A DNA stretch of 64,000 nt from Amia ocellicauda (lineage: Eukaryota; Chordata; Actinopteri; Amiiformes; Amiidae): assembly GCF_036373705.1 (NCBI RefSeq), contig NC_089869.1, positions 13,527,676 to 13,591,675 on the forward strand, read 5' to 3'. The notes under the pieces were generated by a model. The model made no database searches, had not been told where the DNA came from, and saw only the letters and a program-made list of their open reading frames with translations. A program made the translations under genes and the position numbers. Of this stretch, positions 4,101-55,100 are shown piece after piece; within the stretch, counting starts at the first letter, position 1, and each line of letters starts with the position of its first letter.

Positions 4101-4939
4101 GTTAATGCAGAGTTATTACAAATCACATGAATGAGCATGACTGCTAACCATCTTCCCTGCCATTTGTTCAAAACCTGCTACTGCAAAGTCCAACCTGAAT
4201 GAACTGGGACTTGTACTTGGTCTGCAACAATCAGTCTTAGTTTTTTTGATATCAATACATCTTCAAGCCTACACACCAAGCACATGCTTCTGAATTAGTA
4301 GTGCGATTTAAAGCTATAATTATCTGTTCTGTTTTATTGTGATTAACAGGAGATAGTGATCATAAAATAATGTCGGACCTTATTTTAATGGTGTAAAAAC
4401 TTTTGTCACTAAAAACAAACAATTACTGCATTACTCCGCATTACCTGACCTTATCTTGTACATTTTGGACCATGTTCTCCCCTCCATTTCTCTATTTGGA
4501 AGACATATCTGCAGCTCCACTGCATACAGCACAATCAAAGTGTTGAGATGGTTTTGTACCTATACAATATTCAGATTGTTGTAAAGCCATGCCTGTGGTT
4601 TTTAACTTGTATCGTTTCTGAATTTCTGTTGCAGGGATTTTGGAATGGCCGTTTTGGACAAAACTGGTAGTGGTAGCGATTGGTTTCACTGGAGGACTGG
4701 TGTTCATGTACGTACAGTGCAAAGTGTACGTCCAACTGTGGAGGAGACTGAAGGCTTACAATAGAGTAATATATGTGCAGAACCGACCAGAGACCTATAA
4801 AAAGATAATTTTCGAGAAGCCTGCACTAATGGAGCCAAACTTTGAGAACAAAGAAGCGCTGGCTCCTCACCAGTCAGACACAAACTCTTCACCTTACACA
4901 GAGCCAGAGGACTACAGCGTGGAAATACTCAACGTTTGA
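1010..4939 (+). CDS. MARCHF8: MARCHF8, membrane-associated RING-CH E3 ubiquitin ligase, C-terminal exons only
   Basis: MARCHF8 is a two-span membrane E3 ligase of endosomes and plasma membrane that ubiquitinates surface receptors such as MHC class II, transferrin receptor and CD86. Visible coding exons are 1010-1157, a probable microexon 2420-2434, and 4635-4939 with the stop at 4937-4939. The first exon holds TM1 ([19 protein letters not shown]). The last holds TM2 ([20 protein letters not shown]), then the cytosolic block [16 protein letters not shown]. The tail contains EPNFENK and SDTNSS and ends [12 protein letters not shown]. These tail motifs match MARCHF8 rather than its paralog MARCHF1, whose tail differs. 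The RING-CH exons lie left of the window. The gene converges on the TIR-pseudokinase and ALOX5 genes, matching the convergent MARCHF8/ALOX5 order in human. Confidence 0.95.
2420..2434 (+). CDS. MARCHF8: Probable 15-nt MARCHF8 microexon
   Basis: The sequence CCGGAAGAATCCCAG is flanked by a T-rich tract ending ACCATGCAG and by the donor GTAAAT. The flanking exons meet in phase 1. Including the 15 nt keeps the frame and inserts five residues (AGRIP) into the luminal loop between TM1 and TM2, giving GQTS-AGRIP-GILEW. Skipping it gives GQTSGILEW, the arrangement in human. It is therefore likely an alternatively used microexon. The evidence is splice signals and phase only. Confidence 0.6.
3481..3640 (+). 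repeat. Unclassified dispersed repeat, copy A
   Basis: The block TACATTTTGGTCCAGGCGAG followed by GGTTAGAGACCCCA, and a later CATTTGTATGGGCCA block, recur with small changes at 62675-62850. The two copies share order and spacing, so this is an interspersed repeat with at least two members here. The class is unknown. Confidence 0.5.
4635..4939 (+). CDS. MARCHF8: MARCHF8 terminal coding exon (TM2 and cytosolic tail)
   Basis: The acceptor TTTCTGTTGCAG is followed by GG ATT TTG GAA TGG. The exon encodes [13 protein letters not shown]2, and the cytosolic tail with several tyrosines, including VYVQL and YNRVIYVQ. The open frame ends at TGA 4937-4939. The tail keeps the TEPED-like acidic end typical of MARCHF8. 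Confidence 0.95.
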
Positions 4940-12054: not shown

Positions 12055-12193
12055 TTAAGTTATGACATCCTCATACTCCAATATATTCTCATAAATATTT
12101 TCCTCGAAGTTGTAATCAATTTCATCGGATGTGCTGGATTCAGAACCGAACAACATATATTCCCTTGTGTTGGACATCATTGGTAATCTGGAT
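12055..12193 (-). CDS. Terminal exon: acidic tyrosine-rich tail with ITIM-like motif
   Basis: The acceptor TTTTTATTCCCAG precedes the exon, and the phase-2 join completes an Arg codon. The tail reads SRLPMMSNTREYMLFGSES, then STSDEIDYNFEENIYENI, then LEYEDVIT and TAA at 12057-12055. It is rich in Asp and Glu and has four Tyr. LEYEDV fits the ITIM consensus (I/V/L/S)xYxx(I/V/L), and YENI is a second Tyr-x-x-Ile. Such tails are phosphotyrosine docking sites in immune receptors and adaptors. A role here is inferred. Confidence 0.75.
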
Positions 12194-15100
12194 CTGGGAA
12201 TAAAAAGAGTAAAAAACAGTTTATATAGGTTAAATCAGGCACTACCAAATACATTCTTAGTCATCCAAAATGTATTCTCTCTTCATATTCCATTTCTTCA
12301 TCACGTTCTTGTTATGATGTTGAATCTTGACTGACATTTACCTGACTTCCCCAAATGTTTGTATTATCGAGTGAAAAGAAGGACGTTTGGTGGGATTTGG
12401 GTTCCAACAACTCTTCATGCACTGAAACAGGCCATCCAGGGGCCCATCAATGCTCTCTGGGAGATTTCTAGGGTTTACAGTATTTAGAACCTGCATCAAT
12501 ATGGGAAAATCAGTTATCATTAAACTCTGAATCCAGTGGGCACCATTTTACTTTATTTTACTGAATAAGTCCACCCCAGTAAGTAGACTATTGCATAGAA
12601 CTCTACAATATCCACTGGCTAAGTTCAAACTGGACACAAAAAACATGTTTCTGTAATGAAGACAATAATATATATCCTCCAGACAATGTATCAGTTCTGT
12701 AATTTGTACTATTTTATATTTTTGAGGAAATTAATTTAAAAAAACTGTAATAACTTCAACATTCTGAATTGTTATGCAATTGGAAATCGACAAAACAAAC
12801 GTACTAACATTTGAGAAATGGAGACTTGTTTATAAGGGTTTAAATATGTGAAACTACAGCTGGATAGATTATTCTGAATGTACAGTGATTTCCAATCAAC
12901 CCCTGCTATAGTTTGTGTGAATAATGTATCAATACTTGCACTAAACAAATCTAAGTATAGCAAAGTTAGTGTTGCCTACCTGGCACGAATTCACATTACA
13001 GAATGGCTTCAGGGCCTTCTTAAAGTAAATCCTGGGTATACCAAACACTAGTAAACTTTCCCAGATCATAATGCCAAACATGAAGACGTCCGAGGCCCGG
13101 GAATACACTCCCCCCTGCTGAACTTCTGGAGGAGACCTGATTGTGAAATAAACAGTAGAACATTAGACATTGGTCCAGGGTTTTGAAGACTTCAGTTCGC
13201 ATTAGTGAGATCAATGAAGTTTCTAATCCTACTGTGTTCATATTTGGCTGCACAGTATGTATAACTGAAAACATGAAAATGTAGAATGATTAATATTGTA
13301 ACCATATTAGGCATTCAAGATCACATAAGGCATAAACACAGTTAAAGTTAGATCAATATTTGAGGTTGAATTGCTGTGATGGGAATTTTAAATATGGCAC
13401 TTGATTCTGTCTAAAAACACATGTGGTTGTAAACACAATTACCATTTGACTGCATCTTCCGGCATTAATTTGTAGACATTTGGGAATGCTAAATTGTCCG
13501 ACGTCTTATTGGGAAGGTAAACGGCTCGTCCAAATCTGCCAACTTTCACTTTTTGCTGAAAAGAAGTTCGAAATTTGACTTCAGTGATGGAGTTTAGAAT
13601 TTTGTCTCCCTTCGCAACAGTTCTCGAAAGCAAATTCTTCCTTTAAATACAAATATAACAAACAAAACTACACATCAATCACCTGTTGTTGGAAGACGAA
13701 CATGTTACAGGCCCTCACGTCGCAGTGAATGATTGACAGGTCATGGAGGTTCCTCAGTGCTTGAGCGATCTGTTGCAAGTAGTCCAGCCGCTCCTGCAGC
13801 TCCACGCTCTCCATGGCAGCAATGTCAAGGAGGGTGAAATGGAAGTTCACCAGAGGCTCTGAACTCTAGAAAAGTGGCCGTGAAACAGTCACTTGTGTGT
13901 TTCTGTATCTGATAGTGTCGTACAAACACTGAAATCCAGTGTACAAGATCATGTCACTGAAGATTTAAGAGGGTGATTGGTCTTCAGATGCATATGACTT
14001 GAGACTGCAGGCCTAGGTAACAATTTTTTTTTTTTTGGTATGATGTATGTACCTTTATTATACAAAAATAACAAAAGTTACAATACTTTGCTCCCTATCA
14101 TTTATAGGCTTATTTTGTTAACTCAGTATACCACAGTGGGTCATATATGTTTTAACAGATGTAATTATATCCAGAAGAATAGTTTAGAGATTTAAGCCTA
14201 ATACAATTTATTATGCACTGATAATGTAAAAGACATGGACTTTTTAAGTTGTATTTTTAATTAAGATTTCTGTAATGCTAAAGGTATACATCTAAATTAT
14301 GAATTGGGATTCATTTAATTAAATAGTGTAACTTCACTTTATGATGCATTTCAAAAGCTGCAGTTACACTTACCAGAGTAGTAGAATAACTGTATGAGAT
14401 ATCGTCTATGCACAGGAAACTGGGTCCTGATAAACTCAGAAGGGCTTTCCTGGTCTCAAGGCTCATTCTTACAGAGACCACCTCTTTCAGATTAAAGCCC
14501 TGGATATACAAAATACACTGCATAACAAAAACATTTCCATACAGGGATAAGAAGGCCTGTTTTTAATGACTGGTGGAAAACTCAATAAGTTGATTTCATA
14601 ATACATATGTATCCACATGTAACCACATACAAAAGTGTATGGAGAGAGGGAAAAAAAAACTGCATTCGCACACAAACCGGTTGGGTAAATGTTAAAATAT
14701 GGATTCTTTCTGCTGTATGCCCAGCTAGCGTGCAGAGTTATCCAAGAAATATTCACCTTTGTGATCATGTCAGCACACAAGTCAGTTTTCTGAGGTTCAT
14801 CTGTTTTCTCTGGAACATAAATCCCTTTAAAAAGAGAAACAAAACAAAATGCACTATTGAGCCATTTTAATATCGGATTCATGAAAGCATTGCAGTAAAA
14901 TATTGTGAGTATAATATATACTAATTGTTTAATGTTGGTTGACTCATTGCTTAAAAGCAAAGACTATAAAGTAGGTTAAGACTATTGTCATGAAGCTGTA
15001 TTGCATAACTTGAAGTAGGTGAAGCAATATTTCACAACTACAGACAGAGGGCAGTATGTGCCTTGTTTCCACCGGCTACCTGAGCCAGCTGTAGTTCTAA

Positions 15101-18100
15101 AATAAGTTCTAAAAGTATTGCTGTAAAAAATAAAAAAGGCTGTAGAATTAATCTAACAAAGTCTATCCATCAAGCTCCTATGCAAACAGTCTTGGCTCTC
15201 ATCCATAGGTTAGAGTGTATTCTTAAATTAACAAAATATACGCCACATTTTTCAAGAGGTATTTTAATTAAATCGTATTAGATTAAATAAGTACACATAA
15301 ACCACAATCTGATTTGCTGGTGCTTGGTTGATTTGTGTGCTTCCTTCTGGCAATGGAATGGATCGATTGTCCATGCTCGCCTTCTTGCAGCCACCCTGCC
15401 GCACAGAGAGCACCACACACAACATGTGGGTTAGAAATGGTGGTTTTGCAGCATCAGTACAGATCCTGCCTATCATGAACCACCATCTGGTGTGTCCTCT
15501 CCCTTCAATTTGGAGATAAATGTCTGGAAATGTAAAGGATGTGTGTAGATGTTTTTGTGTGAAGCAGATCTCTGGATTGAACATTAGGATTTAAGTCCCT
15601 TACCATCATCATCCAAATAGCCCTGTTGAAAAAACAAAAGCAAAAGGGGAAAAACACAAACAAAACAATGAGACGCTACATTTTTATTCATATTTTTCTA
15701 GACAGACAACATTGGGAGTTTCTGAACTTCCTTACAGAAGTATACATCAGATTAAAGTAAACTATCTGACTACCTGTGTCACTGCACTTTCAAATATTAT
15801 TAACTATGTATGCTGGAGTGCAAATATAGGCAATTTATATTTTAGACATGGGATTGATTTGTACCTGATTATATTGCTTTTAAAATTATATTTGTCATTT
15901 AATTACACAACACCAGACTTACAGTTGTGTGTGTGTATGTGTATGTATGTATGTATGTATGTATGTATGTATGTATGTATGTATATAGGGCTTATATTTC
16001 CTCATTGTGTTTTATTGAACAGGTATTTACAGAAATGTGGACAGATAGTAAGATAAGACTCAGAAATGGCTTGTTTTCTTTCCTTATTTGTAATACATTA
16101 ACCACTGTGACAGTAATGAGTTGCACCTGGGGAAAAAACAAATCCTAATTATAGAGGTATTTTGACAAAGGTTATTGAAATTGAAACTTACCCTTTCAAT
16201 GTTACCTTCATCAATTGGAGGTGATATACAATCAGTAATGTGAAGCTTCGCAATCCTGTCTCCTAAGAGTGAAGAACATTAAAATCAGCGACCTGTATAT
16301 ACCTCAATATATTGGTTTAATATAAGTTTGAATGTAGTTAAAAATGTAATATTGCTTATTGCTGCTTACCAGAATATAATTTGTAATTCTCCAGCTTAAC
16401 CACTAAATCTTCAGCACTTGAACTGTTAATAGTCTCCAGGTCCAAACAACTGGCTATTATATCATATAACATGTCTGGTATGAAGATTAGCTTTTGTGCT
16501 TTATGCCCTTCTATTACCTATAAGGGAAATACAAATAAATAAAACATTTTATTGCATATAATAACCAGGAGCATACAGTCTGTACAGTTTGTCTTTACTT
16601 TTAAATGTAATCTTTGGCAAGAAGTGTTTACATCTGGGTCTGGAGTTTCCAGAGAGAGGCACTTGTTACAAATACATGCTTAATTACATTTAGTTATTTA
16701 CTGTTTTTATTTTTTGTAACTCTCCTCCTTGCATTTTTTTCTATTGCATTGGAGATTGTAATGATCCAACTACTACAACATATATGGAATAAACCTGAAC
16801 GATATTAATGGGCAAGTTGGGTAACCATCATTTTTTTTATAATTAAACAAACATAACAAGCTAAACAGAACTTTACTGAAGTAATTATAGTCCTCGTTAT
16901 GGTTTTCATCCCACATTTAAACCATAACTGACTGATTGTTGCATCCTCCCAGGAGCTTGGTAACAATCTGGCACCACCTCCCCACTCCTCCCTCCCTTGG
17001 ACAAAAAGAGAGAGTATACCTCGCTTATGACATCCTGTGTGTTCATGTGGTCTAACTCCAAATAGGGCTGCCTTCCATATGACAGGACAGAGAAGTATGT
17101 TATGGCAACCATCCATGTATCTGAGCCAAAGGAGAATTCGTGTTTTTTCAGAGACACCGGCGCACTGAAACGGACAGCCAGGGCTTCCTTCATGTCACCT
17201 GCAAGAGAGGGAATACTAACTTTATACAAGGATACTTGTCTGCACACCCACCAGTCTGTCCCTAGGCCTTTTAAACTTCTCATGAAATAATTCTTTGTCA
17301 GATAAAAGTGGAGAACGTTACTATATTAACAATATTTGATACTGATTAAGGGTGCTTTAAACAAGCAACCCCAATACATGTCTTAGTTAAAAAAAAATAC
17401 AAACAACAGCATTATATCTTTTACCCAAAGTCCAATGCTATGATTTTTGCACTGTTATTTTTACAACATGAGAAGAGAAGGATTGAACAGTACCATGGAA
17501 GGTTGCATCTGTATCATATTCACAGTCTGGATCGGAATAATAATAATTTTGATCCTTCACCACACTTCGTGCCATGAGGAAGCTTGAGAGCTTGACAACG
17601 AGCTGTGGCGCCAGGTTCCCAGTTCTCATTGATCCAGTGAAACTCGCCGGGGTTATGTCTCTCAGAAGGAGTTTGCGGTCATGGCAGTAGTGTACGGCTT
17701 TGGCCACCGAAAGGAAGATTTCCAACATGTTTGATAAATGGAGATGGTTTTCATTGTCATGCAGGAGTCTGAGCAGGGGCTGATGGTCCTCGAGTGCGTA
17801 AAAAGGCAAAGGACCACGGGGATTGGCTTTCCAGAGTTTCGCCACAAAATCGTTCTCACTGTCTTGACAAAGTGCCTGGGTAGTGAAGACTAGATCGTGA
17901 AATCGGATGTAAAATTCATCCGTGTGGTTTGTTTTCAAGGCATCATTGAGGGTCTGCTGCAAGCTCACGTATATCTTAACATCCCCTTGATATGTTGTGC
18001 CTCTGAGAACTAAAGTGTTCATCCTTTTCTGATGCTTGCCTTTGAAAGTAATACCTGAGAATTGTACTGCACAATGCAGGTATTTGCCAGACTTTCCTTT

Positions 18101-20218
18101 ATTACTGCAAATTCTTGACCAAGTCTGGAAACATTATATGTTGTGTTAAAGAACACTGTGGGGGCAAAGTAGTTCCTGACCTCTTTGACTGGGTGATAAA
18201 CTAACTTTTGGAAGAAATGTGAAAGGATAAGTATTTGATTGCTTTTCTTGGAACTCTTTTGCTGGCAGTATGTCCACAATCTCTCCAGTAATGCTTTGCA
18301 CTGATCCACGTCCGCTAGAATGATGGAAAAATAGTTAGGAAAATAGAATTGGGAAATAAACAAATAAGTAGCACAGAGAAACATGTGTAAAGAACGTGGA
18401 TTGGGTGAACAGTCTGCTATTGCTTTTTTTTAAGGTAAACAACTTCTAACAGATATGGTAGTAACATCTTTATAATTTAATTTCAGAGCAGATCAAATCA
18501 AATTTAGATTATTTCTATTCTAGCACATGATTTCATGAGTTTGAAACCTCTTTTTTTTTATGTATGGCGTACTGTCATATCCCATCTTAAGACTGCTTGA
18601 AAATATGCCATGAACATCCATCAAACATTGCCCAAGAAAGCAGACTTTTATTGTTGGATTTTCCATGGCAACAACACCAAGCACAGTATGCTAATTGAGG
18701 CACATGATACGGTTTTGTTTTCAAATGAGTAATCCGATCAATAATGCCTGAAAGTGGGTTTTCTCATTAATAAAGTTGAATAGCTTAATGTTAACATCTG
18801 TGACCACATTCTTTAATGATTCTCTCTAGCTTGGTTTTCAAAATGTTGAATAAGATACATGAGAAACGATTGTTGAACTCCAGTTGTTACTGTTTTGGTT
18901 TTGGAGGACGTGTGCTCCGATTGAGCTGCTGCTTACCATATGTGCGTCCCTTTAGCATGTAGTCAGTGACGCGTTCCACCACTCCCAGAAAACACCCCCA
19001 TTCCTTATTTCCCAGCTTTACACAGGTGTTTTGGAGAAATACCTTGTGCTGATTAATCTGATTTTCTTCAAAGATCTAAAATACATTTCTCAAATTAATT
19101 TACTTTAACACTAACATATGTTAAATACAAAATTCACTGAATTAAAATGTCAGATTTCTATAGCATGGTACATTTTAAGAAAACATTTACATTTATATTT
19201 GATGGACGTTACATTCTTAACCAAACAGAAAATGGCAGTCAGACAGTGGTATTGATGTTTGAAAAAAATGCTTATATAAAAAGACTTTTTTTTTTTCTAA
19301 AATTAGACTTGAGTTATCATGTATACATTTAGAAAAAAATACTTCTACAATTTTCTAAATTTACTTGGCTTAAATACTTAATTTGACCTGTGTTGATTTT
19401 AAAAGCCAACACCATCCATCACTTAGATGATACTTTTTCCTGCCTGTTTGTCATTGCTGTTTGTCTGGCAGTTGACCAAATGTGCCAACAGACCTTTAAA
19501 GGGTATAAAATGAAGTACCTTTTCAGTGATGATCACTAGGAAAATATTCCTGATTGCCCAAGGTAGCTTCTTCATGTTCCGTTGGAAGTCTTGGACCAGC
19601 AGATCTCGGCACGCAACCGAATCCATCTCTTCAAACAGTCGAGGAACTTTCTCCAGAAGGCTGATGCAATTCTGCACAATACTGCTGGTACTCTGTTGGG
19701 CACTCTCTAGGTTGGCATAAAGGGCTCCTCGGAATTTCTGGTAGAACCTTTGGCAGAGTGAGCTGAAGGTTTTCTTTTTTCTGGCAAATGAGAACCGCTT
19801 CCATGCCCGACGAGGAGATACCATCTTTTCTGGTATGTCTAGGTTTTTGGAGATGCAGGTGTTTAAGAAGAAAGCTGCCAGGATGTAGCAGTGTAACTCT
19901 TGCTGCCTGTACAACAGCTCTGGGTCAGCAGAGGTCTCTCTTAGAATAAGTTTCTGGACATCCTGTTCCAAATCTTTCAAATCCCTTTGTTTGCTAAATT
20001 TGATGAGGTTTCTCTTCAAGACTCTGGCCAGAGCAGAGGTGGCTTCCTTTCTTATTTTTTCATCTTCATTTTCAGTAGCTGCCGCCCACAAAACATCATC
20101 TTGATTCTTAGAGGCAGCCTGCTTAATCCTTTGGAAGATATTTTCTTTTGTCTCTACTTAATATTAACAAAAAGGTAGAACAAATTTGGTTTGTTTCCAG
20201 CCATCATCATCATCATCA

Positions 20219-20261
<43 letters not shown>

Positions 20262-23200
20262 TCCATTTAATGTTCTGCTGAATTTGTGTGGACTCAGATA
20301 TTCAGTCTTTTGTGGCCTCAGTGGTATTTACAGGATGGTTTAGTGAATAATCAAACACATTCGCTAGGCATTTCATCATTTTAAGTCTTCACACATACTT
20401 GTTGAATAATTAATCTGGAATTTGTCTGAAAGATTTATTGTTTATCTGTATTAGATTTACAGTTTTTTATTACTATAAGCATAACTCTAGCCATTAGAGG
20501 AAAGGTTTCACAGTTATTACCTTGTGCTGCTATTTCTGGAAATAAAGATTTTTTTCCTCTGAAAGATCCTCTCATGTAGTGATTTCTGTCGAAACTCTGT
20601 TTTAATGGATCTGTTAAAGAAGGAGTTTGTAGGATTTACTGAACCCATATGCAAGCAGGGGCTTGTAGCTGTAGTTATGCTGTCAGTTTTGTTTTTGCTA
20701 TTAAGTAGTAGTTCTGTGGCTCACCAAATATATATTGATGAAAACATCTTATCAATGAAATCAAAAGAAAAGTATTCCGTATGAAGTTTTTTTGTTTTAC
20801 CTGGTCTGTATTAGTACTGCTCAGACTTGGATAATATTAGCCTTACCTTAGATTATTTAAAAGCAATAACAATTAGGGCTAATCAAAACTTTGACCGACC
20901 TGCGAATCACAAATTACAAATGTGGTCAGAAGACACTTTCTACTGGTTTCTACTGCAGGTAGGTTAGTCTTTTTTAATGCTCATTACAGCAATATCAGTG
21001 AGCTGGTATACACTCACCTAAAGGATTATTAGGAACACCATACTAATACTGTGTTTGACCCCCTTTCGCCTTCAGAACTGCCTTAATTCTACGTGGCATT
21101 GATTCAACAAGGTGCTGAAAGCATTCTTTAGAAATGTTGGCCAATATTGATAGGATAGCATCTTGCAGTTGATGGACATTTATGGGATGCACATCCAGGG
21201 CACGAAGCTCCCGTTCCACCACATCCCAAAGATGCTCTATTGGGTTGAGATCTGGTGACTGTGGGGGCCAGTTTAGTACAGTGAACTCATTGTCATGTTC
21301 AAGAAACCAATTTGAAATGATTCGACCTTTGTGACATGGTGCATTATCCTGCTGGAAGTAGCCATCAGAGGATGGGTACATGGTGGTCATAAAGGGATGG
21401 ACATGGTCAGAAACAATGCTCATGTAGGCCGTGGCATTTAAACGATGCCCAATTGGCACTAAGGGGCCTAAAGTGTGCCAAGAAAACATCCCCCACACCA
21501 TTACACCACCACCACCAGCCTGCACAGTGGTAACAAGGCATGATGGATCCATGTTCTCATTCTGTTTACGCCAAATTCTGACTCTACCATCTGAATGTCT
21601 CAACAGAAATCGAGACTCATCAGACCAGGCAACATTTTTCCAGTCTTCAACTGTCCAATTTTGGTGAGCTTGTGCAAATTGTAGCCTCTTTTTCCTATTT
21701 GTAGTGGAGATGAGTGGTACCCGGTGGGGTCTTCTGCTGTTGTAGCCCATCCGCCTCAAGGTTGTACGTGTTGTGGCTTCACAAATGCTTTGCTGCATAC
21801 CTCGGTTGTAACGAGTGGTTATTTCAGTCAAAGTTGCTCTTCTATCAGCTTGAATCAGTCGGCCCATTCTCCTCTGACCTCTAGCATCAACAAGACATTT
21901 TCGCCCACAGGACTGCCGCATACTGGATGTTTTTCCCTTTTCACACCATTCTTTGTAAACCCTAGAAATGGTTGTGCGTGAAAATCCCAGTAACTGAGCA
22001 GATTGTGAAATACTCAGACCGGCCCGTCTGGCACCAACAACCATGCCACGCTCAAAATTGCTTAAATCACCTTTCTTTCCCATTCAGACATTCAGTTTGG
22101 AGTTCAGGAGATTGTCTTGACCAGGACCACACCCCTAAATGCATTGAAGCAACTGCCATGTGATTGGTTGGTTAGATAATTGCATTAATGAGAAATTGAA
22201 CAGGTGTTCCTAATAATCCTTTAGGTGAGTGTATGTTGGCAAGATTAAAAAAACAAAACAATCTTTACACTGAATCTGAAATTTTAAACAAAGGTTTAAT
22301 ATTGCACTTTGTATTGCTCTTATATTTTGTAAGTTGCCCTGGATAAGGGTGTCTGCTAATAATAAATAATATAAACCGCAGGACATTTTAAATCAGACTT
22401 TTGTTGTGAGCAGTAAGGATGCAATTTAGTATAAAGGTATGAGATATGCTTACCAGGAAGAACAGACCCATTATAATATACGTCCCCTGCAACAAAACAA
22501 ACAAGTAAGGTAAGTTAAAATGTTTATTGAAATAAATCACATTCAGTGAAAAATCTATTGTTACTTGCACCTGCTCTGGGTCAGTTAATATTACTTTAAT
22601 ATATACTTTATATGAAATGTAGCATAGCATCTTCAACTTATTCAAATATCATTAGCCGTTTCTGCGTGAAAGGATACTTACGACGGTCGGGCAAATCATA
22701 AACTGTGCAGAGTGAAGAATCTGAAATAAACCAACATAAAACTGAACAGATCTGAAGCAACTCGTGCCTAGTTGAACTAAACAGTGATCCACTAACAAAG
22801 CAACACATGCAGGTTAGGCCTATACTATAGTACAATGTGCCATTGCCATGATTTAAAAAACAAGATAAGCACTGAAGAGGGATGGGCAGCAGGTTTGTGA
22901 GGCATTGTGTGTGTGCTGGCGTGCCCCGTTTCCACTGGCTAAGCGTCCGTGTTCAGCGGCCGGTTAACTTGCTGCTGCTGGACGCGTCCGTCCCACTGAG
23001 GACGTGATTCACTGTGGGCAGCGGAGTGTGTGTTTGACGGAGACACATTGTGTCGGAGATATAACCTCAAGTGCCGAGTGCGATCACGAAGAAATTGCAG
23101 TTTTATTAGCAGCATGGAGTAAAATCCACGTACAGAAACAATGACTGATACAGTTAATATCCGTGTGTATTAACACAGCGCCTGACTAGTTAAAATAAAC

Positions 23201-26200
23201 TGAAGGATATTAATCGGATCAGCAGCCGATGTTATTAATACTGTATGACAGCTGGCCGGTGTTCAGGACAATCAGTATGAAGGCGAACACGATTCAGTTA
23301 ACGTGTCCATTTACAAGATGCATTAATGAATAAATAAATACAGCGGATCTGGGTTTCCCTCTAAAACATTAATAAATGCGTCCATAAACGGCATGACTGA
23401 GACGCGCACTTTAGTTCAATTATAACCGGCTATATTGTATCTGGATGATTCATCGTGAATCGTGTGTATTGTGTTTCAGCTGTAACTTGCCCGGGTTAAG
23501 GACGTCTGATAAGTACATTATAAATAATACGGCAAATAGTATCGATTGCAGTTACAAATCTGTAGTAAGAGTAATATGGGAGTCACGCTGTGCCGTTTAA
23601 AATACATATATACCAGCACAAATGGTGACGATAATAATAACAATACATATTTGCTATTTATTTTATTGTTGCGCATGGAAACGTATTCTTATGGGAACAC
23701 GCTTGTGTGAAAATAATGTTGTGTACACGTTCAGCTCTTCCTAATATCTCTGAACAGAAACGTGTATTTATTAGGCTGTTTGCAATCATATAAAGCAGAC
23801 ACACAAGTCCTCTCCACGTCAGGCTGTGTCGCTCGCAGTGTTTCCTGTCTCTGTTTTTAACACAAACCAAACCCACGGCCGCAGCTCCTCCATCACAGGG
23901 ACGGGTGACTGCGGCCTGCTTTACACACGCAGCCCAGACGCGTGTGAGGACGGCATGGCAGACACGACGCTTAAGCCAGTGGAACCGCAGTACTGTCTTT
24001 TGTGTAGCCTGGGATGTTTTGGCTGTAAAATGATTGGTGGTGTGTTACTATGACATTGATTAAAATGTTCAACTCAACAACCATGTTCTTGACGTAAATG
24101 CAGCAGTTTAAAAGGATTACTTACTTTCAGTTACTTCGTAATAAGTTGTTGATGACATTTCTGGGGGAGTAAAGAAGAACCCTAATCAAAATTGAAATCC
24201 ACCAAAGTGACTCGTACGGTAACGGTTAACTCAGATTCCATTAGGTATGATGCCATTCAAACATAGCCGAGATTATACCGGCATCCCATTGGATTGATCA
24301 GTTCAAAGTCATTTGTAGACCAGAAATGTCAACCTTTCCCCCTGTCAATCAGGTAAGAGTGAGCTGCAGTACACTGTGCACATCACTTAGTGCATCACCA
24401 GCACAAATCTCTTTATATAAGACTTCTTATAGGTTCCTAAAGATACAGACACACAAAGGAAAACAAATTAATCATTTTACATAGTTTCTGACATCCTCCC
24501 AATACTTAAGCATTTTTAAACTTGACCACATCAATGAACCTACTTTCACAACTTCACAAAAATAAGCTGTGTGGAAACCCACAAGAATTGAAATGATTTC
24601 TTACTTTTTTCCTTCTTCAAATGAAGGTGAAAGTTGCGTGGCAGTGATGTTAAAAGTACAGGTAACATACTTTTCTGGTCAGTGCTGCTTACCTGAATCT
24701 CTTTCTCCTTTAGCCAGTTGCAGACGTTTCTCCAGGGGGAACTTGGCCTTCTCTTTCTCTATTGTTTCACAAAGCTTTGGCAGCAATACTGCCATTTCAG
24801 AGTCTATTGCATTCAGACTGAAGCAGGTCTTTAAGAAGGGTGATTTGTGATCAATGGGTTCAAATAACAGGAGAACCGTTCTACGCAGTATGTTGCTTTG
24901 CATGAACCAGCTTTTCATTCTGGAGAACCACGGGTCCTGGTAAACTGGAAGAATTGTAACTGGGATGACTCTGAGAGGTTCAGTGAAGGCTTGCATATAT
25001 ACCCCTCCTCCAGTGTAGTCCCGGCAGCCATGGTAACACTTGTATCCTCTCTCTTCTAGTGGTTTGACAATTTCTTTCTCTATCCGATCGTCAATTTCTT
25101 CCTGTTTTTTACTTCGAGGTTCATTACCAGAAGGGATGTAGAGATCGTAGCAGTATATCTCATGGAACACCGAGTCACCTGTAGAAATTAAATGAACTGT
25201 GAAATGAAATGGACTATATATTCAACAAGCAGTAAGCTTATTAATTTGTGATACATGTGTATTCTCAAGGTAATCTAAAGTGTTCAGTGTTTGTTTTTTG
25301 TTGAATAGTTTGAAGCTGTAATTACTTGATTTTACATAGTGATGGTCTTGCGTTTTTCAGTGATTTCTGTGCAGTAGAGCTAGGATACTCAACATGTAAC
25401 AGCTCTCAAGTTTTCATTCCGTCAATGGGTGAGATTTTTCACTTAGAAAAAAGCGAGAGAAACAGGTCCCACTGACAAAACCAGCAGCCTGAGCGAGTGC
25501 AGTGCGCGTAGTTGTGGAGTGGGGGGAGGAGGGGAGAGCTATGTAACAAGGCAGATTTATTTCCTTATACATTAAGAGAAGGTACAAGACATGACAAGCA
25601 AAACAGCAGCAGCCCTGTTTTAACAAAACCCTTTTTTTGTTTTTAACAATGTTGTAGCATTTAAATTGGAATTTGCATGCTGTTGTCCCAGCCACCTCTG
25701 GTACAGCAAAGTGTGTTCGATTCTTTGTTACTGGTATTTATAAAAGGATTTACTACTCTTATAGTTATAGATATGTCTGGTCATTGTCTTAACCCACTGT
25801 TGGGTACATTTAGCTTTTCCTGATAAACTTTGTAGTTTGAGCTCTGTAGTATTTTGGGTTAGGATTGTAATCTGAAACCTTAAACAATACGTTTATAATG
25901 CTCCAAACACTCAAATCAAAGCAGAGTTATGGAATTTGCCATGTATCACACTACTCTCATACTATCATTGTTTTAATAGTAGGAAGGAAGTACAGATTGC
26001 TTATCACATAGATCACAGTTCTGCTTATCACCTCATGTGATATTATTATCTAGGCAGTTTGTGTTAAGTACCAAGCAGTCTGATTTTGAAGGGTGATTAG
26101 TAACAGAAAGGTTTCCTTTTCAATTACTGTATATAATTCCAAAAGAACAGTCTTCATGTCAATAATGTAGCAACAATAATAGTGGGTTTGGCTTTTAGCC

Positions 26201-26312
26201 AAATCATGAACTGTACAGTAATTTAGAGCAATATTATTTTTCATATAGAACGAAAGCACTTACCAAATTTTCTTGCCTTACAGTCCCTACAGTGATCCGT
26301 ATTGTCATTCAT
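12055..26312 (-). CDS. TIR / helical-repeat / tandem pseudokinase protein, about 1,216 aa, about 19 coding exons
   Basis: I do not recognise this as a named gene. Exons (minus strand, 5' to 3'): 26312-26264, 25178-24693, 22720-22682, 22486-22454, 20535-20521, 20156-19519, 19075-18937, 18314-17494 (frame break inside), 17198-17020, 16517-16370, 16262-16192, 15622-15604, 14824-14757, 14499-14374, 13865-13683, 13636-13443, 13136-12980, 12490-12342, 12193-12055. Every junction except the break agrees in phase. Domains by approximate residue: TIR 18-165; linker 179-207; alpha-helical ARM/HEAT-like region 208-550; kinase-like domain 1 555-850; kinase-like domain 2 880-1170; acidic tail 1171-1216. 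Both kinase-like domains lack key catalytic residues. The tandem layout recalls JAK JH2-JH1, but there is a TIR where JAKs have FERM and SH2. No signal peptide or membrane span is seen, so it is probably a cytosolic innate-immune adaptor or scaffold (inference). Confidence 0.8.
12342..14824 (-). CDS. Exons encoding kinase-like domain 2 (predicted pseudokinase)
   Basis: Exons 14824-14757, 14499-14374, 13865-13683, 13636-13443, 13136-12980 and 12490-12342. The C-lobe is clearly tyrosine-kinase-like. The catalytic loop is IIHCDVRACN, with HRD Arg replaced by Cys but catalytic Asp (about 992) and Asn (about 997) kept. The DFG position reads GRFG, with Arg (about 1038) in place of Asp. The activation-segment end reads WSPPE, followed by ASDVFMFGIMIWE (the SDVW block). 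The C-lobe end reads CMKSCWNPNPTKRPSF, matching the usual CW-xx-P-xx-RPxF signature. The N-lobe is poorly conserved. VVSVRM may be strand beta-3 with Lys replaced by Arg. Loss of the DFG Asp should abolish Mg-ATP catalysis. Confidence 0.8.
15604..16262 (-). CDS. Short linker exons between the two kinase-like domains (71 nt and 19 nt)
   Basis: Exon 16262-16192 encodes GDRIAKLHITDCISPPIDEG followed by NIER. A 19-nt microexon, 15622-15604, encodes GYLDDD. It has a poly-pyrimidine tract and CAACAG acceptor and a GTAAGG donor. It joins in phase 1 to the next exon to give DDDGIYVPEK. Phase agreement on both sides is the main support for the microexon. Confidence 0.65.
15925..15985. repeat. (TGTA)n microsatellite
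   Basis: A GT run grading into a TGTA tetranucleotide array, read directly. It lies in an intron of the TIR-pseudokinase gene. Confidence 0.95.
16370..18314 (-). CDS. Exons encoding kinase-like domain 1 (predicted pseudokinase)
   Basis: Exons 18314-17494, 17198-17020 and 16517-16370. The catalytic-loop equivalent reads YCHDRKLLLRDITPASF near residue 685, so HRD His is Leu and the Asn is lost. The DFG equivalent reads VKLSSFLMAR, with Asp replaced by Ser and Gly by Leu. The C-lobe is recognisable from AVRFSAPVSL (the APE region, with Glu lost) and FSFGSDTWMVAITYF, followed by LSYGRQPY. This resembles JAK JH2 in position but is more degenerate. The reading frame changes once between about 18150 and 18022. 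The flanking frames are both convincing coding sequence, so an undetected small intron, a base error or a real frameshift must be invoked. Confidence 0.72.
18055..20156 (-). CDS. Exons encoding the alpha-helical (ARM/HEAT-like) middle region
   Basis: Exons 20156-19519, 19075-18937 and the 5' part of 18314-17494. The large exon encodes charged amphipathic helices, including KENIFQRIKQAASKNQDDV, WAAATENEDEKIRKEATSAL and ARVLKRNLIKF. These resemble one or more ARM/HEAT repeats. Cys-rich helical segments follow (SLCQRFYQKF, SIVQNCISLLEKVPRLFEEM). Helical repeats next to a TIR are known in SARM1, where the order is ARM-SAM-TIR. Here the TIR comes first. The assignment to ARM/HEAT is from periodicity by eye. 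Confidence 0.6.
20200..20262. repeat. (ATC)n-(TTA)n trinucleotide array
   Basis: A short CAT/ATC run followed by about 14 TTA units. Intronic. Confidence 0.95.
20521..22720 (-). CDS. Three tiny phase-1 linker exons (39, 33 and 15 nt)
   Basis: Exons 22720-22682, 22486-22454 and 20535-20521 each have a pyrimidine-tract acceptor and a GTAAG/GTAATA donor. All are multiples of three, with phase 1 at both sides. Together they read DSSLCTVYDLPDRR, DVYYNGSVLP and EIAAQ between the TIR and the helical region. Any of them could be skipped without shifting the frame. A full Tc1-like element (21011-22231) sits between the second and third. Confidence 0.6.
20875..20930. repeat. Fragment resembling the arm of the palindromic MITE at 45536
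   Basis: The segment AATCAAAACTTTGACCGACC resembles the terminal arm AATCAAAACTTTGACCCATC at 45.55 kb. Only one arm is recognisable, so the call is tentative. Confidence 0.35.
21011..22231 (-). mobile_element. Complete Tc1-like transposon with DD36E transposase
   Basis: A 1,221-bp element. Its ends, CACTCACCTAAAGGATTA and the inverse TAATCCTTTAGGTGAGTG, are perfect inverted repeats, flanked by TA duplications at 21009-21010 and 22232-22233. It carries one uninterrupted transposase frame on the minus strand. It is inserted in an intron of the TIR-pseudokinase gene, in the same orientation as the gene. The intact frame and perfect ends suggest a young insertion. Confidence 0.95.
21043..22083 (-). 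CDS. Tc1/mariner transposase (346 aa, DD36E)
   Basis: A cut-and-paste DNA transposase with no internal stop. The N-terminal helix-turn-helix ([20 protein letters not shown]...[16 protein letters not shown]) binds the terminal repeats. The catalytic triad is seen as WSDESRF, FQQDNAPCH and LNPIEHLW. By direct count, 36 residues separate the second Asp from the Glu, where classic Tc1 and Sleeping Beauty have 34. This matches the DD36E (Incomer-type) group known in vertebrates. The C-terminus ends [13 protein letters not shown] 3'-truncated relative lies at 43.24-43.55 kb. Confidence 0.93.
   Translation of the reverse strand: MGKKGDLSNFERGMVVGARRAGLSISQSAQLLGFSRTTISRVYKEWCEKGKTSSMRQSCGRKCLVDARGQRRMGRLIQADRRATLTEITTRYNRGMQQSICEATTRTTLRRMGYNSRRPHRVPLISTTNRKKRLQFAQAHQNWTVEDWKNVAWSDESRFLLRHSDGRVRIWRKQNENMDPSCLVTTVQAGGGGVMVWGMFSWHTLGPLVPIGHRLNATAYMSIVSDHVHPFMTTMYPSSDGYFQQDNAPCHKGRIISNWFLEHDNEFTVLNWPPQSPDLNPIEHLWDVVERELRALDVHPINVHQLQDAILSILANISKECFQHLVESMPRRIKAVLKAKGGQTQY
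22325..22378 (+). repeat. SINE 3'-tail fragment
   Basis: The segment GTAAGTTGCCCTGGATAAGG followed by GTGTCTGCTAATAATAAATA is the tail of the same SINE type seen at 476-665. No head is visible. Confidence 0.65.
22928..23985. mobile_element. CpG-rich DNA element with terminal inverted repeats (about 1.06 kb)
   Basis: The left end GTTTCCACTGGCTAAGCGTC and the right end GACGCTTAAGCCAGTGGAAC are inverted complements, with one extra base in one arm. The interior is conspicuously CpG-rich compared with the flanking intron and has no transposase-like frame. It is best explained as a non-autonomous DNA transposon in the intron between the TIR exon and the next exon. The superfamily is unclear and no convincing target duplication was found. 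Confidence 0.6.
24693..25178 (-). CDS. TIR-domain exon
   Basis: The 486-nt exon (acceptor TTAATTTCTACAG, donor GTAAGCAG) encodes a whole TIR domain at about residues 18-165. Box 1 is CYDLYIPS (about 26-33). Helix A is DDRIEKEIVKPLEERGYKCY. Box 2 is HGCRDYTGGG (about 66-75). Strand D is VIPVTILPVY, followed by DPWFSRMKSWF. In enzymatic TIRs and TLRs this last site reads WCxxE. Here the Glu position is Met (about 104), so NADase activity is unlikely and a scaffolding role is more likely (inference). The spacing is typical of animal TIRs. Confidence 0.85.
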
Positions 26313-26340
26313 AGTTACCCAGTATCAAGGATCTGCACAT
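26264..26340 (-). CDS. First coding exon with start codon and overlapping uORF
   Basis: The exon runs from the acceptor TTTTACAG to the donor GTAAGTGC. Translation starts at ATG 26312-26310 (MNDNTDHCRDCKARKF) and joins the TIR exon in phase 1. An upstream ATG at the very first base of the exon opens an 11-codon frame (MCRSLILGNYE) that terminates at a TGA overlapping the main start. This may dampen translation. The acceptor implies at least one further 5' non-coding exon, which I could not locate. Confidence 0.72.
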
Positions 26341-32587: not shown

Positions 32588-33395
32588 TCAGTGCACAGCC
32601 ATTTTCAGATCTCTCCAGAGATGTTCAATCAGGTTCAAGTCTGGGCTCTGGCTGGGCCACTCAAGGACATTCACAGAGTTGTCCTGTAGCCACTCCTTTG
32701 TTATCTTGGCTGTGTGCTTAGGGTCGTTGTCCTGTTGCAAGATGAGGTCCAGAGCACTCTGGAGCAGGTTTTCAACAAGGATGTCTCTGTACATTGCTGC
32801 ATTCATCTTTCCCTCGATCGTGACTAGTCTCCCAGTTCCTGCCACTGAAAAACATCCCCACAGCATGATGCTGCCACCACCATGCTTCACTGTAGGGATG
32901 GTATTGGCCAGGTGATGAGCGGTGCCTGGTTTCCTCCAGACATAACGCTTGCCATTCAGTCCAAAGAGTTCAATCTTTGTTTCATCAGACCATAGAATTT
33001 TGTTTCTCATGGTCTTAGAGTCCTTCAGGTGCCTTTTGGCAAACTCCAGGCGGTCTGTCATGTGCCTTTTACTGAAGAGTGGCTTCCGTCTGGCCACTCT
33101 ACCATACAGGCCTGATTGATGGAGTGCTGCAGAGATGGTTGTTCTTCTGGAAGGTTCTCCTCTCTCCACAGAGACACACTGGAGCTCTGTCAGAGTGACC
33201 ATTGGGTTCTTGGTCACCTCCCAGTGTGGCCGGGCGGCCAGCTCTAGGAAGAGTCCTGGTGGTTCCGAACTTCTTCCATTTACGGATGATGGAGGCCACT
33301 GTGCTCATTCCCAAGATCTGTGCCTCGATACAATCCCGTCTCGGAAGTCTACAGACAATTCTTTGGACTTCATCGCTTGGTTTGTGCTCTGACAT
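32588..33395 (-). pseudogene. Tc1-like transposase pseudogene (DD34E)
   Basis: The N-terminal part (33395-33099; [38 protein letters not shown]) and the catalytic part (33217-32588) are in different frames. Catalytic motifs [21 protein letters not shown] and [11 protein letters not shown] are present with 34-residue spacing. The usual NPIEH is NLIEH. Frameshift and premature end make it non-functional. Confidence 0.9.
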
Positions 33396-40971: not shown

Positions 40972-43900
40972 ATTACTATTATTTCAAGGCCTCTTTTTTG
41001 TATATCGTGATATCATATCATTATTGTCCAGATTGTGGAAAAAAACTGATCTGATTTCAGTTAATACCATTTCTCTGAGTTACCTCGGCTCCTATGAAAT
41101 TTCTCGTGATCATACTAATTAATGCCTAAACTGATCCTTAATGAAATACCATTAAGAAAACAATGTTAATCAAGGTTTTAAAATATCAATGTTTGGAAAT
41201 TTGGATTATAATAATACCTTAGTGGTGCTCAAATACAAAATAAAAACATGTTTGTTTGTTTGTTTGTTTAAAACATTTTTAAGACCACATAATTTGCCTG
41301 GTGCAGAAACTAGCAGTTTTTAAAAGCATGATACTCTACCTCAAGGTGGCCTCCCAGACTTTTAACCCATCATCTCTGTAAAAATAATAGGGGATATCTT
41401 CCTGGCTTTCCAACCCTCTCATTTTTATGGATTCAGGAAAACACATGGATGTGTACGTGAATTCCTTCATGGAGCGCTGTACTAACTGAACGTGGCCCCC
41501 TCCACCTGTTGCGTTGGCCTACAATGTAAACAAACAGGTTGTATTTTTGGGCCCTACCATTTTCATCCAATTAATGATTTAATGGTGAGGAACATATGAC
41601 AGAAAAGGGACAATACTTTTTTTATTATTATTTCAGAAATTAACCATTAAAATGTCTCAGGCTTTATTTTTTGCTGAATAACACATTGGTGGTAGAGAAG
41701 CTGGTGAAATTAATTAAACCTAAAACAATCAGCAAATGCAGGAACAGATATTCAGTTTGTTTGAAAGTTATGTTGTGTTTGGTGTGGTTAGCCTTTCAAG
41801 TGACTATTTCAGTTCAGTTGTAATTGTATAAAGAGCTACAAATGTGTGATAGATGTGGTATTTCTTATCTCAGTCTGGTCCAAGAGCATTAAAGCCTTTG
41901 ATGATTACTTTGATGATTACCCAGTAAATGTTTCAAAGGTATGGTTTTAAACTGGCATAATCATTATTAAACAGTTAGGATTTGTTTTTACCATTTAAAG
42001 GGGGTATACTCAGTTGTCATAGTGGCCAGCTGGCTAATGGAAGACAAACATAGGCGGGTGTGTAGTAACCGTGAATTAATTAGCACGGACAAAAGCACCA
42101 TATACACCATATACAGTGAGGGAAAAAAGTATTTGATCCCCTGCTGATTTTGTACGTTTGCCCACTGACAAAGAAATGATCAGTCTATCATTTTAATGGT
42201 AGGTGTATTTTAACACTGAGAGACAGAATAACAACAAAAATATCCAGAAAAACACATGTCAAAAAAGTTATAAATTGATTTGCATGTTAATGAGGGAAAT
42301 AAGTATTTGATCCCCTATCAATCAGCAAGATTTCTGGCTCCCAGGTGTCTTTTATACAGGTAACGAGCTGAGATTAGGAGCACTCTCTTAAAGGGAGTGT
42401 TCCTAATCTCAGCTCGTTACCTGTATAAACGACACCTGTCCACAGAAGCAATCAATCAATCAGATTCCAAACTCTCCACCATGGCCAAGACCAAAGAGCT
42501 GTCCAAGGATGTCAGGGACAAGACTGTAGACCTACACAAGGCTGGAATGGGCTACAAGACCATCGCCAAGCAGCTTGGTGAGAAGGTGACAACAGCTGGT
42601 GTGATTATTCGCAAATGGAAGAAACACAAAATAACTGTCAGTCTCCCTCGGTCTGGGGCTCCATGCAAGATCTCACCTCGTGGAGTTTCAATGATCATGA
42701 GAACGGTGAGGAATCAGCCCAGAACTACACGGGAGGATCTTGTTAATGATCTCAAGGCAGCTGGGACCATAGTCACCAAGAAAACAATTGGTAACACTAC
42801 ACCGTGAAGGACTGAAATCCTGCAGCGCCCGCAAGGTCCCCCTGCTCAAGAAAGCACATGTACAGGCCCGTCTGAAGTTTGCCAGTGAACATCTGAATGA
42901 TTCAGAGGAGAACTGGGTGAAAGTGTTGTGGTCAGATGAGACCAAAATCGAGCTCTTTGGCATCAACTCAACTCGCCGTGTTTGGAGGAGCAGGAATGAC
43001 CCCAAGAACACCATCCCCACCGTCAAACATGGAGGTGGAAACATTATGCTTTGGGGGTGTTTTTCTGTTAAGGGGACAGGACAACTGCACCGCATCAAAG
43101 GGACGATGGACGGGGCCATGTACCGTCAAATCTTGGGTGAGAACCTCCTTTCCTCAGTCAGGGCATTGAAAATGGGTCGTGGATGGGTATTCCAGCATGA
43201 CAATGACCCAAAACACACAGCCAAGGCAACAAAGGTGCTGGATGTTTTTCCCTTTTCACACCATTCTTTGTAAACCCTAGAAATGATTGTGCGTGAAAAT
43301 CCCAGTAACTGAGCAGATTGTGAAATACTCAGACCGGCCCGTCTGGCACCAACAACCATGCCACGCTCAAAATTGCTTAAATCACCTTTCTTTCCCATTC
43401 AGACATTCAGTTTGGAGTTCAGGAGATTGTCTTGACCAGGACCACACCCCTAAATGCATTGAAGCAACTGCCATGTGATGGGTTGGTTAGATAATTGCAT
43501 TAATGAGAAATTGAATATTTGTTCCTAATAATCCTTTAGGTGAGTGTATAGTACTGTGCAAAAGTTGTAAGCAGGTGTGAAAACATGCTATAAAATAAGA
43601 ATGCTTTCAAAAATAGACATGTTAATAGATTATATGTATCAGTTAACTAAATGCAAAGTGAGCAAACGGAAGAAATATCTACATCAAATCAGTATTTGGT
43701 GTGACCACCCTTTGCCTTCAAAACAACATAAAAACTTCTACACAGTACTGTATATCATCAACAATGAATTTAAAAATGTAAAAGTAGTTGCCATTTGCTA
43801 AACATCAACGAGGCAGTACTCACCTTATCAAAGAGCCCACACTCGCAGATAAGCTGCTCTCGAGCCTTTGTATTAATCGCAATTGTGAAGCGCACATGGG

Positions 43901-52116: not shown

Positions 52117-55100
52117 GTTTTGCATGACTGAAAGAGAAGCTATGGGCAGAATAAATAAATAGTAAACCTGTTTAAGCTAATTCACAACAGCATTGAAGGA
52201 GCTAGCTTTAAGATATTATATATTATGATTCAACTGTTAATGCATCATGTTTTGAGGATGATGGATATTATTTATATATGTATTTCATATTAATGGTTTT
52301 GATTTTGCACATTCCTCGTTTTATTTTCCTTTGAGTTAGTTTAGCTTACAGACGTCAGTCTTCATGATATGAGCTGGCGGGCTGCATTTTGATTTCTGAA
52401 CAGAACTGGAAGCAACATTTAAAGTATCCTATTTGCTCACAAAATGCTTCCTTTCTTTCTTCTTAGTTTCGGTTCCCCTGCAATTTCATAGTATTCTGAT
52501 TCAATTGTAGCATGACAGTATAGAGCCCAAGCAGTGATAAACTGAAAGGATTGTGATCCACATTTATAATTATTTTTAACAGTGCCTGCAGGCTTTTACG
52601 CAAATTACACAAACCATTCGCTGGCAAGCAATAAAAAAAACTATTCCACTTGAGATTTCCATCACGCTTTTAAATAAGTTAGTAATTTGGAGAATAGTCT
52701 CATATTTAGAACGCAGAATAGATTTAAAACATGTGAATCTGTTCATTTAGTCAACTATTGGTATTCCAGTATTAATAGAGACTTAAGAATCGCACCTGTA
52801 CAGCTTTTGTCTTGTTTCCAGTTCTTTGCGTCTGTGTTCCTTCGCCAGTCTCGTTTTGTCATCCTGGGCCAGCCGTGCTGCAGATTGCAGAGATAAAGAA
52901 CAAAGTACGCACTGGTTGGTTTGAAATGAAAGCGCATCAGAAACCTGTCAAAATGCTACCATCCTTTGGAAGAGTGGCTTCAGAGAATTGAAAGTAATGT
53001 TTCAAAACCTACAGTTGCAGATGTAGACATATTGCTTGGAATATGTCTAGCACATTCATGGTAAAGCAAGAAGTAGGCTATGTTTTCTTGGCTTGGATTT
53101 CAAATAGTTAAAAAAACATTAGGACATTAAATAATGTTTAAACTTTGCATATAAATGTGCTCATCTTGTACTGTATATGAGCCTATTATGCTGCTGCCTA
53201 GAGTTTAGGGTAGTGAGGTTAGTCACGGTGTAGATCAGGCACTTTGGAGGTGCAGACACTACAGTGGTTAAGTACTTTATCGTATATCAGTTGCTGTTGA
53301 CAGCATGATGGGGAAAATGGCAACAGTGTTCTGTGTGTATATAAACCTGCTATGGTGACATCACCAACGGTGTACACATGCCCCTATCCCTCTGTTTGAG
53401 CTGAGTGACTTAAAGGCATGCCTGTGATGGTGATCTGAATTGGGGGTCTGATATATTACCTTACATATTAATAATAGAATTTATAACTACAGTAGTGTGC
53501 AAACGTTTTAGGTGTGAAAAAATGCTGTAACGAAAGAATGCTTTCAAAAACAGACATGTTAATAGATTATATTTATCAATTAACTAAATGCAAAGTGAGT
53601 GAACTGAAGAAAAATCGACATCAAATCCATATTTGGTGTGACCACCCTTTGCCTTCAAAACAGCATCAATTCTTCTAGGTACACTTGCACACAGGTTTTG
53701 AAGGAACTCGGCAGGTAGGTTGGCCCTAACATCTTGGAGAACTAACCACAGTTCTTCTGTGGATTTAGGCAGCCTCAGTTGCTTCTCTCTCCATGTAATC
53801 CCAGACAGACTCAATGATGTTGAGATTAGGGCTCTGTGGGGGCCATACCATCACTTCCAGGACTCCTTGTTCTTCTTTACGCTGAAGATAGTTCTTAATG
53901 TCTGTCGCTGTATGTTTGGGGTTGTTGTCATGCTGCAGAATAAATTTGGGGCCAATCAGATGCCTCCCTGATGGTATTGCATGATGGATAAGTATCTGCC
54001 TATACTTCTCTGGAGACCATTGAGGAGATCATTAATTCTGACCAAATCTCCAACTCCATTTGCAGAAATCCAGCCCTAAACTTGCAAGGAACCTCCACCA
54101 TGCTTCACTGTTCACACTCATTCGTATACCGCTGTCCAGCCCTTCGGCCAAAAAACTACCTTGTGCTACAGCCAAATATTTAACATTTTGACTCATCAGT
54201 CCAGAGCACCTGTTGCCATTTTTCTACACCCCAGTTTCTGTGTTTTCATGCATAGTTGAGTCATTTGGCTTTGTTGCCACGTCGGAGGTATGGCTTTTCG
54301 GCCGCAAGTCTTCCATGAAGGCCACTTCTGACCAGACTTCTCCAGACAGTAGATGGGTGTACCAGGGTCCCACTGTTTTCTGCCAATTCTGAGATGATGG
54401 CACTGCTGGATGAAGGGAAGTAAGTATGATGCGTCTTTCATCTGCTGCTGTAAGTTTCCTTGGCCAACCACTGCGTCTACGGACCTCAACGTTGCCCGTT
54501 TCTTTGTGCTTCTTCAAAAGAGCTTGGACAGCACATCTGGAAACCACTGTCTACCTTGAAATTTCTGCCTGGGAGAGACCTTGCTGATGCAGTATAACTA
54601 CCTTGTGTCTTGTTGCTGTGCTTAGTCTTGCCATAGTGTATGACTTTTGACAGTAAAGTGTCTTCAGCAGCCTCACCTTGTTAGCTGAGTTTGGCTGTTC
54701 CTCACCCAGTTTTATTCCTCCTGCACAGCTGTTTCTGTTTCAGTTAATGATTGTGTTTCAACCTACATATTGAATTGATGATCATTAGCACCTTGTTTAA
54801 TCATACACCTGATTATGTGCCTACAAAATCCCTGACTTTGTGCAAGTGTACCTAGAAGAATTTATGGTGTTTTGAAGGCAAAGGGTGGTCACACCAAATA
54901 TGGATTTGATGTAGATTTCTCTTCTGTTCACTCACTTTGCATTTAGTTAATTGATAAATATAATCTATTAACATGTCTATTTTTGAAAGCATTCTTACTT
55001 CACAGCATTGTTTCACACCTGCCTAAAACATTTGCACAGTACTGTACATAAACTACTGTACTGCTGTAAATATTTCACAATTGTAAAACATAGCTGAGAC

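Follow-up and report, generated by a model that had tools for sequence, protein, structure and literature searches.

The TIR proteins of vertebrates are generally regarded as a fixed set of receptors and adaptors, none of which is known to carry a kinase-like domain. BCAP (PIK3AP1) and BANK1 have a divergent cytosolic TIR domain in a tyrosine-phosphorylated adaptor, and we know of no kinase-like domain in either. Outside vertebrates, the portions of the sources used here describe Kinase TLRs and Kinase TIRs in choanoflagellates (PMC6040629), LRR-TIR-Kinase homologues of RIPK2 in lancelets (PMC11747288), and, in amphioxus, a set of TIR combinations that numbers 28, of which 20 occur in amphioxus alone (PMC2575513). 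Here we analyze a gene at positions 12055..26340 of a 64,000-nt stretch of the Amia ocellicauda genome (contig NC_089869.1; the window below). A sequence-only reading of this DNA had proposed a vertebrate gene of undescribed architecture, with a TIR domain, a helical-repeat-like middle and two tandem pseudokinases acting as a JAK-like platform. The gene is real. With a probability of about 0.6 we read its product as a signalling scaffold, predicted to lack kinase activity, in which a TIR-like domain is followed by a helical middle, tandem pseudokinases and a tail; the protein is probably cytosolic.

Relatives were sought in a search that covered 5.77 billion proteins, with 8,000 candidates scored per search. 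The first query was a joined protein of 1,166 residues, built with a variant of exon 7 (a 56-nt intron) that was later rejected. This search of the joined translation, which the sequence-only reading had suggested, produced an end-to-end match to protein P0001 of the toad Pelobates cultripes (1,193 residues; 31% identity, query coverage 96%; E-value 3.7e-150), labelled in the database as "insulin-like growth factor 1 receptor". The same search also gave a shorter toad form, P0002, and one distant kinase, while a two-species profile search gave four more distant kinase-bearing proteins. For shorter relatives, a search with the first 547 residues returned the isoform P0002 only, and the sole match of a profile of these residues was an engineered repeat protein (E-value 0.13). 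A phmmer search with the TIR region had no matches, and the 25 pattern matches in viral contigs included no relatives. When the toad protein was searched against the window's genome, we found the gene's own exons and three other places (8 matches; 39 of the 48 candidates scored); of the other places, one reads as a ROR kinase (L004) and one as titin (L006).

The identity to the toad protein was 39.6% in the TIR-like domain (149 aligned residues), 29.3% in the helical region, 34.7% and 39.1% in pseudokinases 1 and 2, and 19-24% in the linkers and the tail. This pattern, together with the toad isoform pair, points to one gene for the TIR-like, helical and kinase-like parts, as had been read earlier; given the end-to-end match, a chance resemblance or a pair of unrelated transcripts is very improbable. 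Introns reach about 2.3 kb and the model is drawn from genomic DNA, which would leave room for two adjacent genes, one for a TIR protein and one for a kinase, wrongly joined. Nevertheless, the end-to-end match lies in one annotated toad protein with two isoforms, and there are no in-frame stops between the parts; we give such a wrong joining a nearly negligible chance.

Both kinase-like domains had matches to Pfam PF07714 above the cut-off of 23.1, as expected for the two tyrosine-kinase-like domains read from the sequence: 65.9 bits for domain 1 (E-value 4.7e-18) and 92.9 bits for domain 2 (E-value 2.6e-26). The kinase motifs were placed by alignment to PYK2 and EGFR. In domain 1, HRD is replaced by LRD in the window and LRN in the toad, and DFG by SSF and SNF, respectively. 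In domain 2, HRD is replaced by HCD in both species and DFG by GRF in the window and GYL in the toad, while at the position of the VAIK lysine the window has R and the toad K. Since the DFG aspartate is missing in both domains of both species, both are predicted to be catalytically dead pseudokinases, in agreement with the earlier prediction. The two are alike over their C-lobes (hhalign probability 93%).

The proposed JAK-like character of the pair was not clearly supported by sequence affinity. Among the best 60 matches to solved kinases per domain, the closest to domain 1 were PYK2, BMX, TrkC and ZAP-70. For the two-species profile of domain 2 (best 60 of 1,445), a two-copy EGFR construct scored 81.1 bits and full-length JAK1 74.9 bits, a score that may include the second kinase-like domain of that chain; JAK2 (67.3 bits), PDGFRA (65.2 bits) and FAK (63.5 bits) came next. 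When the query was the window sequence by itself, IGF1R (57.3 bits) and EphB (about 55 bits) were ahead of JAK1 (52.5 bits). Pfam found no FERM or SH2 domain in the four protein segments scanned. A JAK-derived protein, in which TIR and helical repeats replaced FERM-SH2 and which acts in the JAK-STAT pathway, would account for the tandem pair and for the lead of JAK1 and JAK2 in the domain 2 profile, the EGFR construct set aside. However, among single-kinase chains JAK2 was only about 2 bits over PDGFRA and about 4 over FAK, the window sequence by itself put IGF1R and EphB before JAK1, and pseudokinase 1 favoured PYK2, BMX and ZAP-70. Moreover, pseudokinase 2 has lost the DFG aspartate, whereas the JH1 domain of JAKs is an active kinase. 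We consider this origin distinctly improbable.

The case for the TIR-like domain, encoded by exon 2, is made by profile-profile comparison. The TIR profile was built from 21 of the 30 TIR loci fetched from the same genome (of 46 matches), nine partial-domain loci being excluded; for two loci with an internal stop the longest open piece was kept, and several loci were near-identical. The hhalign score of exon 2 against this profile was 27.8, compared to 21.0 for the best of 300 shuffles and to 27.6 for a control, TIR_3, which is the BCAP/BANK1-type TIR found in this genome. The match has boxes 1 and 2 in order and covers no more than the first half of the domain. In the list of structural matches, TIRs were the commonest rows (13 of 50 by our own count); the structure models, of low confidence, carry little weight.

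Several results weigh against a TIR assignment. At E-values up to 10, neither exon 2 nor either of the toad proteins had a TIR match in Pfam, and exon 2 is in neither of the genome-wide lists for PF01582 (46 matches) and PF18567 (3 matches). A plain hidden Markov model (HMM) search with the TIRs of the same genome missed exon 2 as well, and in the structural list, made with models of low confidence, TIRs tied with response regulators, caspases and Rossmann folds. These misses and ties would suit a real gene whose N-terminal domain has another flavodoxin-like fold, so that the pseudokinase scaffold would work outside TIR signalling. That reading has to contend with a profile-profile score that matches the control and exceeds every one of the 300 shuffles, with the ordered boxes and with TIRs being the commonest of the structural matches, and we hold it to be unlikely. 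Homology of the exon 2 domain to TIR is thus probable on sequence grounds; the N-terminal TIR proposed earlier keeps profile-profile support and weak structural evidence, though without a Pfam or plain HMM match.

In SARM1-like TIR NADases the catalytic glutamate is held in a WCxxE-like motif. By eye, a clear glutamate of this kind was not evident in either species, with the alignment covering only the first half of the domain. We also observed that cysteines 8, 11 and 26 and histidine 22, encoded in exons 1 and 2, are conserved between the window and the toad; these residues may make up a small site for metal binding ahead of the TIR-like domain.

For the middle region, the toad structure model (predicted local distance difference test 33.5, low confidence) has helices only at residues 230-553. 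This agrees with the helical middle read earlier and fits a helical repeat, the type of which the model does not settle. Between the pseudokinases, the 19-nt micro-exon 11 retains G, Y and D in the toad (GYLDDD in the window compared to GYVDNE).

The one irregularity of the gene is in exon 7. Because the neighbouring exons require phase 1 at either end, this exon ought to be divisible by three in length; at 821 nt it is one base under, and the frame switches near 18030-18060. The exons described earlier as phase-consistent are so in all other cases. Since the toad alignment runs on through both reading frames of exon 7, on either side of the break, a one-base loss (or a two-base gain) near 18030-18060 fits best, be it an assembly error, a rare allele or a recent lesion. 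A frame-restoring 56-nt intron within the exon (18125-18180) was tried and rejected, as this stretch is conserved coding sequence in the toad alignment; the same variant had also determined where the third segment began in the Pfam scan and in the PYK2 alignment. In the exon 7 analysis, 364 GT/GC-AG pairs would restore the frame, therefore any one such pair is no evidence.

Toad P0002 equals P0001 minus 274 residues (822 nt), and in the protein alignment, in which the toad introns are not seen, the missing block is bounded at the exon 7 junctions. If exon 7 is skipped, the window gene retains an open frame of 911 residues, and a genome search found the exon 7 sequence in a single copy. We infer that exon 7 skipping may be used in Amia ocellicauda as well. 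The frame break could instead mark the window copy as a recent pseudogene or a disabling allele, with only the orthologues elsewhere being functional. Yet the 18 exons have no further stops or frame breaks, the exon is short by one base as from a single assembly error, and the 911-residue frame resembles the toad isoform; a disabled copy is therefore quite unlikely in our judgement.

Under the scaffold reading, the TIR-like domain would self-associate or assemble with further TIR proteins. The paired pseudokinases could bind a partner, such as an active tyrosine kinase, and regulate it allosterically, and the linker and tail tyrosines could be substrates of a partner kinase. The conserved linker tyrosine (GY(L/V)D) and the tail tyrosines are candidate docking sites. 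Skipping of exon 7 would yield a second form in which the helical region is cut short at its end and pseudokinase 1 loses its first half, and might serve as a regulatory switch. The location of the protein, its assembly, its partners and any immune role are inferred.

The gene model, made from stop-to-stop translations and splice sites, has 18 coding exons on the minus strand with all introns GT-AG (Table 1). The sequence-only reading had placed the gene at the right coordinates, while counting about 19 exons; its protein of about 1,216 residues is replaced by one of 1,185, including one placeholder at the frame break. The start codon ATG is at 26312. By eye, an acceptor of good quality ends at 26341, 5' of the ATG; exon 1 thus probably starts at 26340, and a 5' untranslated exon is probable further upstream. 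The protein consists of a CxxC N-terminus (residues 1-17), the TIR-like domain (18-168), a linker (169-206), the helical region (207-547), pseudokinase 1 (549-845), a second linker (846-904), pseudokinase 2 (905-1140) and the tail (1141-1185). Rfam gave no matches at the gathering score, and no enrichment of the interferon-response motif was seen.

Table 1. Coding exons of the gene, in window positions, listed from the start codon to the stop codon.
Feature	Position	Strand	Basis
Exon 1 (ATG, CxxC motif)	26264..26312	-	donor GTAAGTG; toad P0001 alignable at the N-terminus
Exon 2, TIR-like domain, residues 18-168	24693..25178	-	toad identity and profile-profile TIR match
Exon 3, linker	22682..22720	-	splice-site model
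Exon 4, linker	22454..22486	-	splice-site model
Exon 5, first part of helical middle	19519..20156	-	splice-site model; helices in low-confidence toad structure model
Exon 6, helical middle	18937..19075	-	splice-site model
Exon 7, helical end and first half of pseudokinase 1, 821 nt, sole frame break	17494..18314	-	toad alignment
Exon 8, pseudokinase 1 C-lobe	17020..17198	-	splice-site model and Pfam
Exon 9, end of pseudokinase 1 C-lobe	16370..16517	-	splice-site model and Pfam
Exon 10, inter-kinase linker	16192..16262	-	splice-site model
Exon 11, 19-nt micro-exon, conserved GY(L/V)D motif	15604..15622	-	splice-site model and toad alignment
Exon 12, inter-kinase linker	14757..14824	-	splice-site model
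Exon 13, pseudokinase 2 N-lobe, glycine loop not recognisable by eye	14374..14499	-	splice-site model
Exon 14, pseudokinase 2 with HCD motif	13683..13865	-	splice-site model and Pfam
Exon 15, pseudokinase 2, GRF in place of DFG	13443..13555	-	splice-site model and Pfam
Exon 16, pseudokinase 2 C-lobe	12980..13136	-	splice-site model and Pfam
Exon 17, end of pseudokinase 2 C-lobe	12342..12490	-	splice-site model and Pfam
Exon 18, acidic tail with tyrosines and stop codon	12055..12193	-	splice-site model; stop 12055-12057

The gene sits between ALOX5 and a MARCHF8-like gene. The ALOX5 exons are at 37271-57592 on the minus strand (Pfam PLAT and lipoxygenase; 5-lipoxygenase structure, E-value 9.2e-18), with two more recognised by eye without Pfam matches. 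The exon at 4622-4936 on the plus strand, also without a Pfam match, is what we take to be the last exon of the MARCHF8-like gene. In human, ALOX5 and MARCHF8 presumably adjoin without this gene in between, which would fit a loss of the gene in mammals. A mitochondrial carrier gene is represented by one exon (PF00153) at 63318-63692 on the minus strand.

Intron 4 contains a Tc1-type transposon (21008-22234) that looks young, with an open 346-residue transposase frame (open reading frame 21043-22083, minus strand), Pfam matches to HTH_Tnp_Tc3_2 and DDE_3, and inverted repeats with 32 identical bases. By eye, seemingly broken Tc1-like transposase pieces are present at 32588-33304 (minus strand), 42364-43398 and 53587-54739 (minus strand); the piece at 43129-43398 (minus strand) has its N-terminus in common with the intact copy.

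More tentatively, and with somewhat less than even confidence, we suggest that Amia and the toad, at least, share an unrecognised family of vertebrate innate-immune scaffolds, which mammals would have lost from the interval between ALOX5 and MARCHF8. In this family TIR assembly would control tandem pseudokinases and exon 7 skipping would act as an on/off switch. A conserved TIR-like protein with two pseudokinases would be a new signalling node and a natural system for the control of pseudokinase pairs by an oligomerising domain, and TIR-plus-kinase fusions would not be confined to choanoflagellates and lancelets.

In the literature searched, judged mostly from titles and abstract openings, no vertebrate TIR-pseudokinase protein was described. 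The architecture is undescribed to this extent, but its toad orthologue was already public, a conserved gene concealed by a misleading automatic name. Toad P0001 has the same order of regions over the 96% of the query aligned, and its isoform P0002 lacks the block matching exon 7; the differences are an identity of 31% and a divergent C-terminal tail, and the database label suits the kinase-like parts only.

The Kinase TIRs of choanoflagellates likewise combine TIR and kinase in one protein without a transmembrane segment; the part of the account used here calls them unique to choanoflagellates and mentions neither tandem pseudokinases nor a helical middle, the comparison being by description only (PMC6040629). 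The lancelet proteins likewise join TIR to kinase in a chordate but, compared by description in the part of the source used, have leucine-rich repeats and, in place of a pair of tyrosine-kinase-like pseudokinases, a kinase of the RIPK2 type (PMC11747288).

Compared directly with exon 2, the two TIR_3 domains of the same genome scored 12.1, while 100 shuffles reached up to 19.0. BCAP and BANK1, as the candidate protein may be, are cytosolic adaptors with a divergent TIR, but to our knowledge have no kinase-like domains. JAKs likewise have two tandem kinase-like domains; unlike in JAKs, no FERM or SH2 was found here in the four segments scanned, the DFG aspartate is missing from the second domain too, and there is no clear affinity. 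By analogy, the nearest conceptual relatives may be the JAKs for the tandem pseudokinase logic and BCAP and BANK1 for the cytosolic TIR adaptor, with the gene adding a variant to the TIR-plus-kinase theme of choanoflagellates and lancelets.
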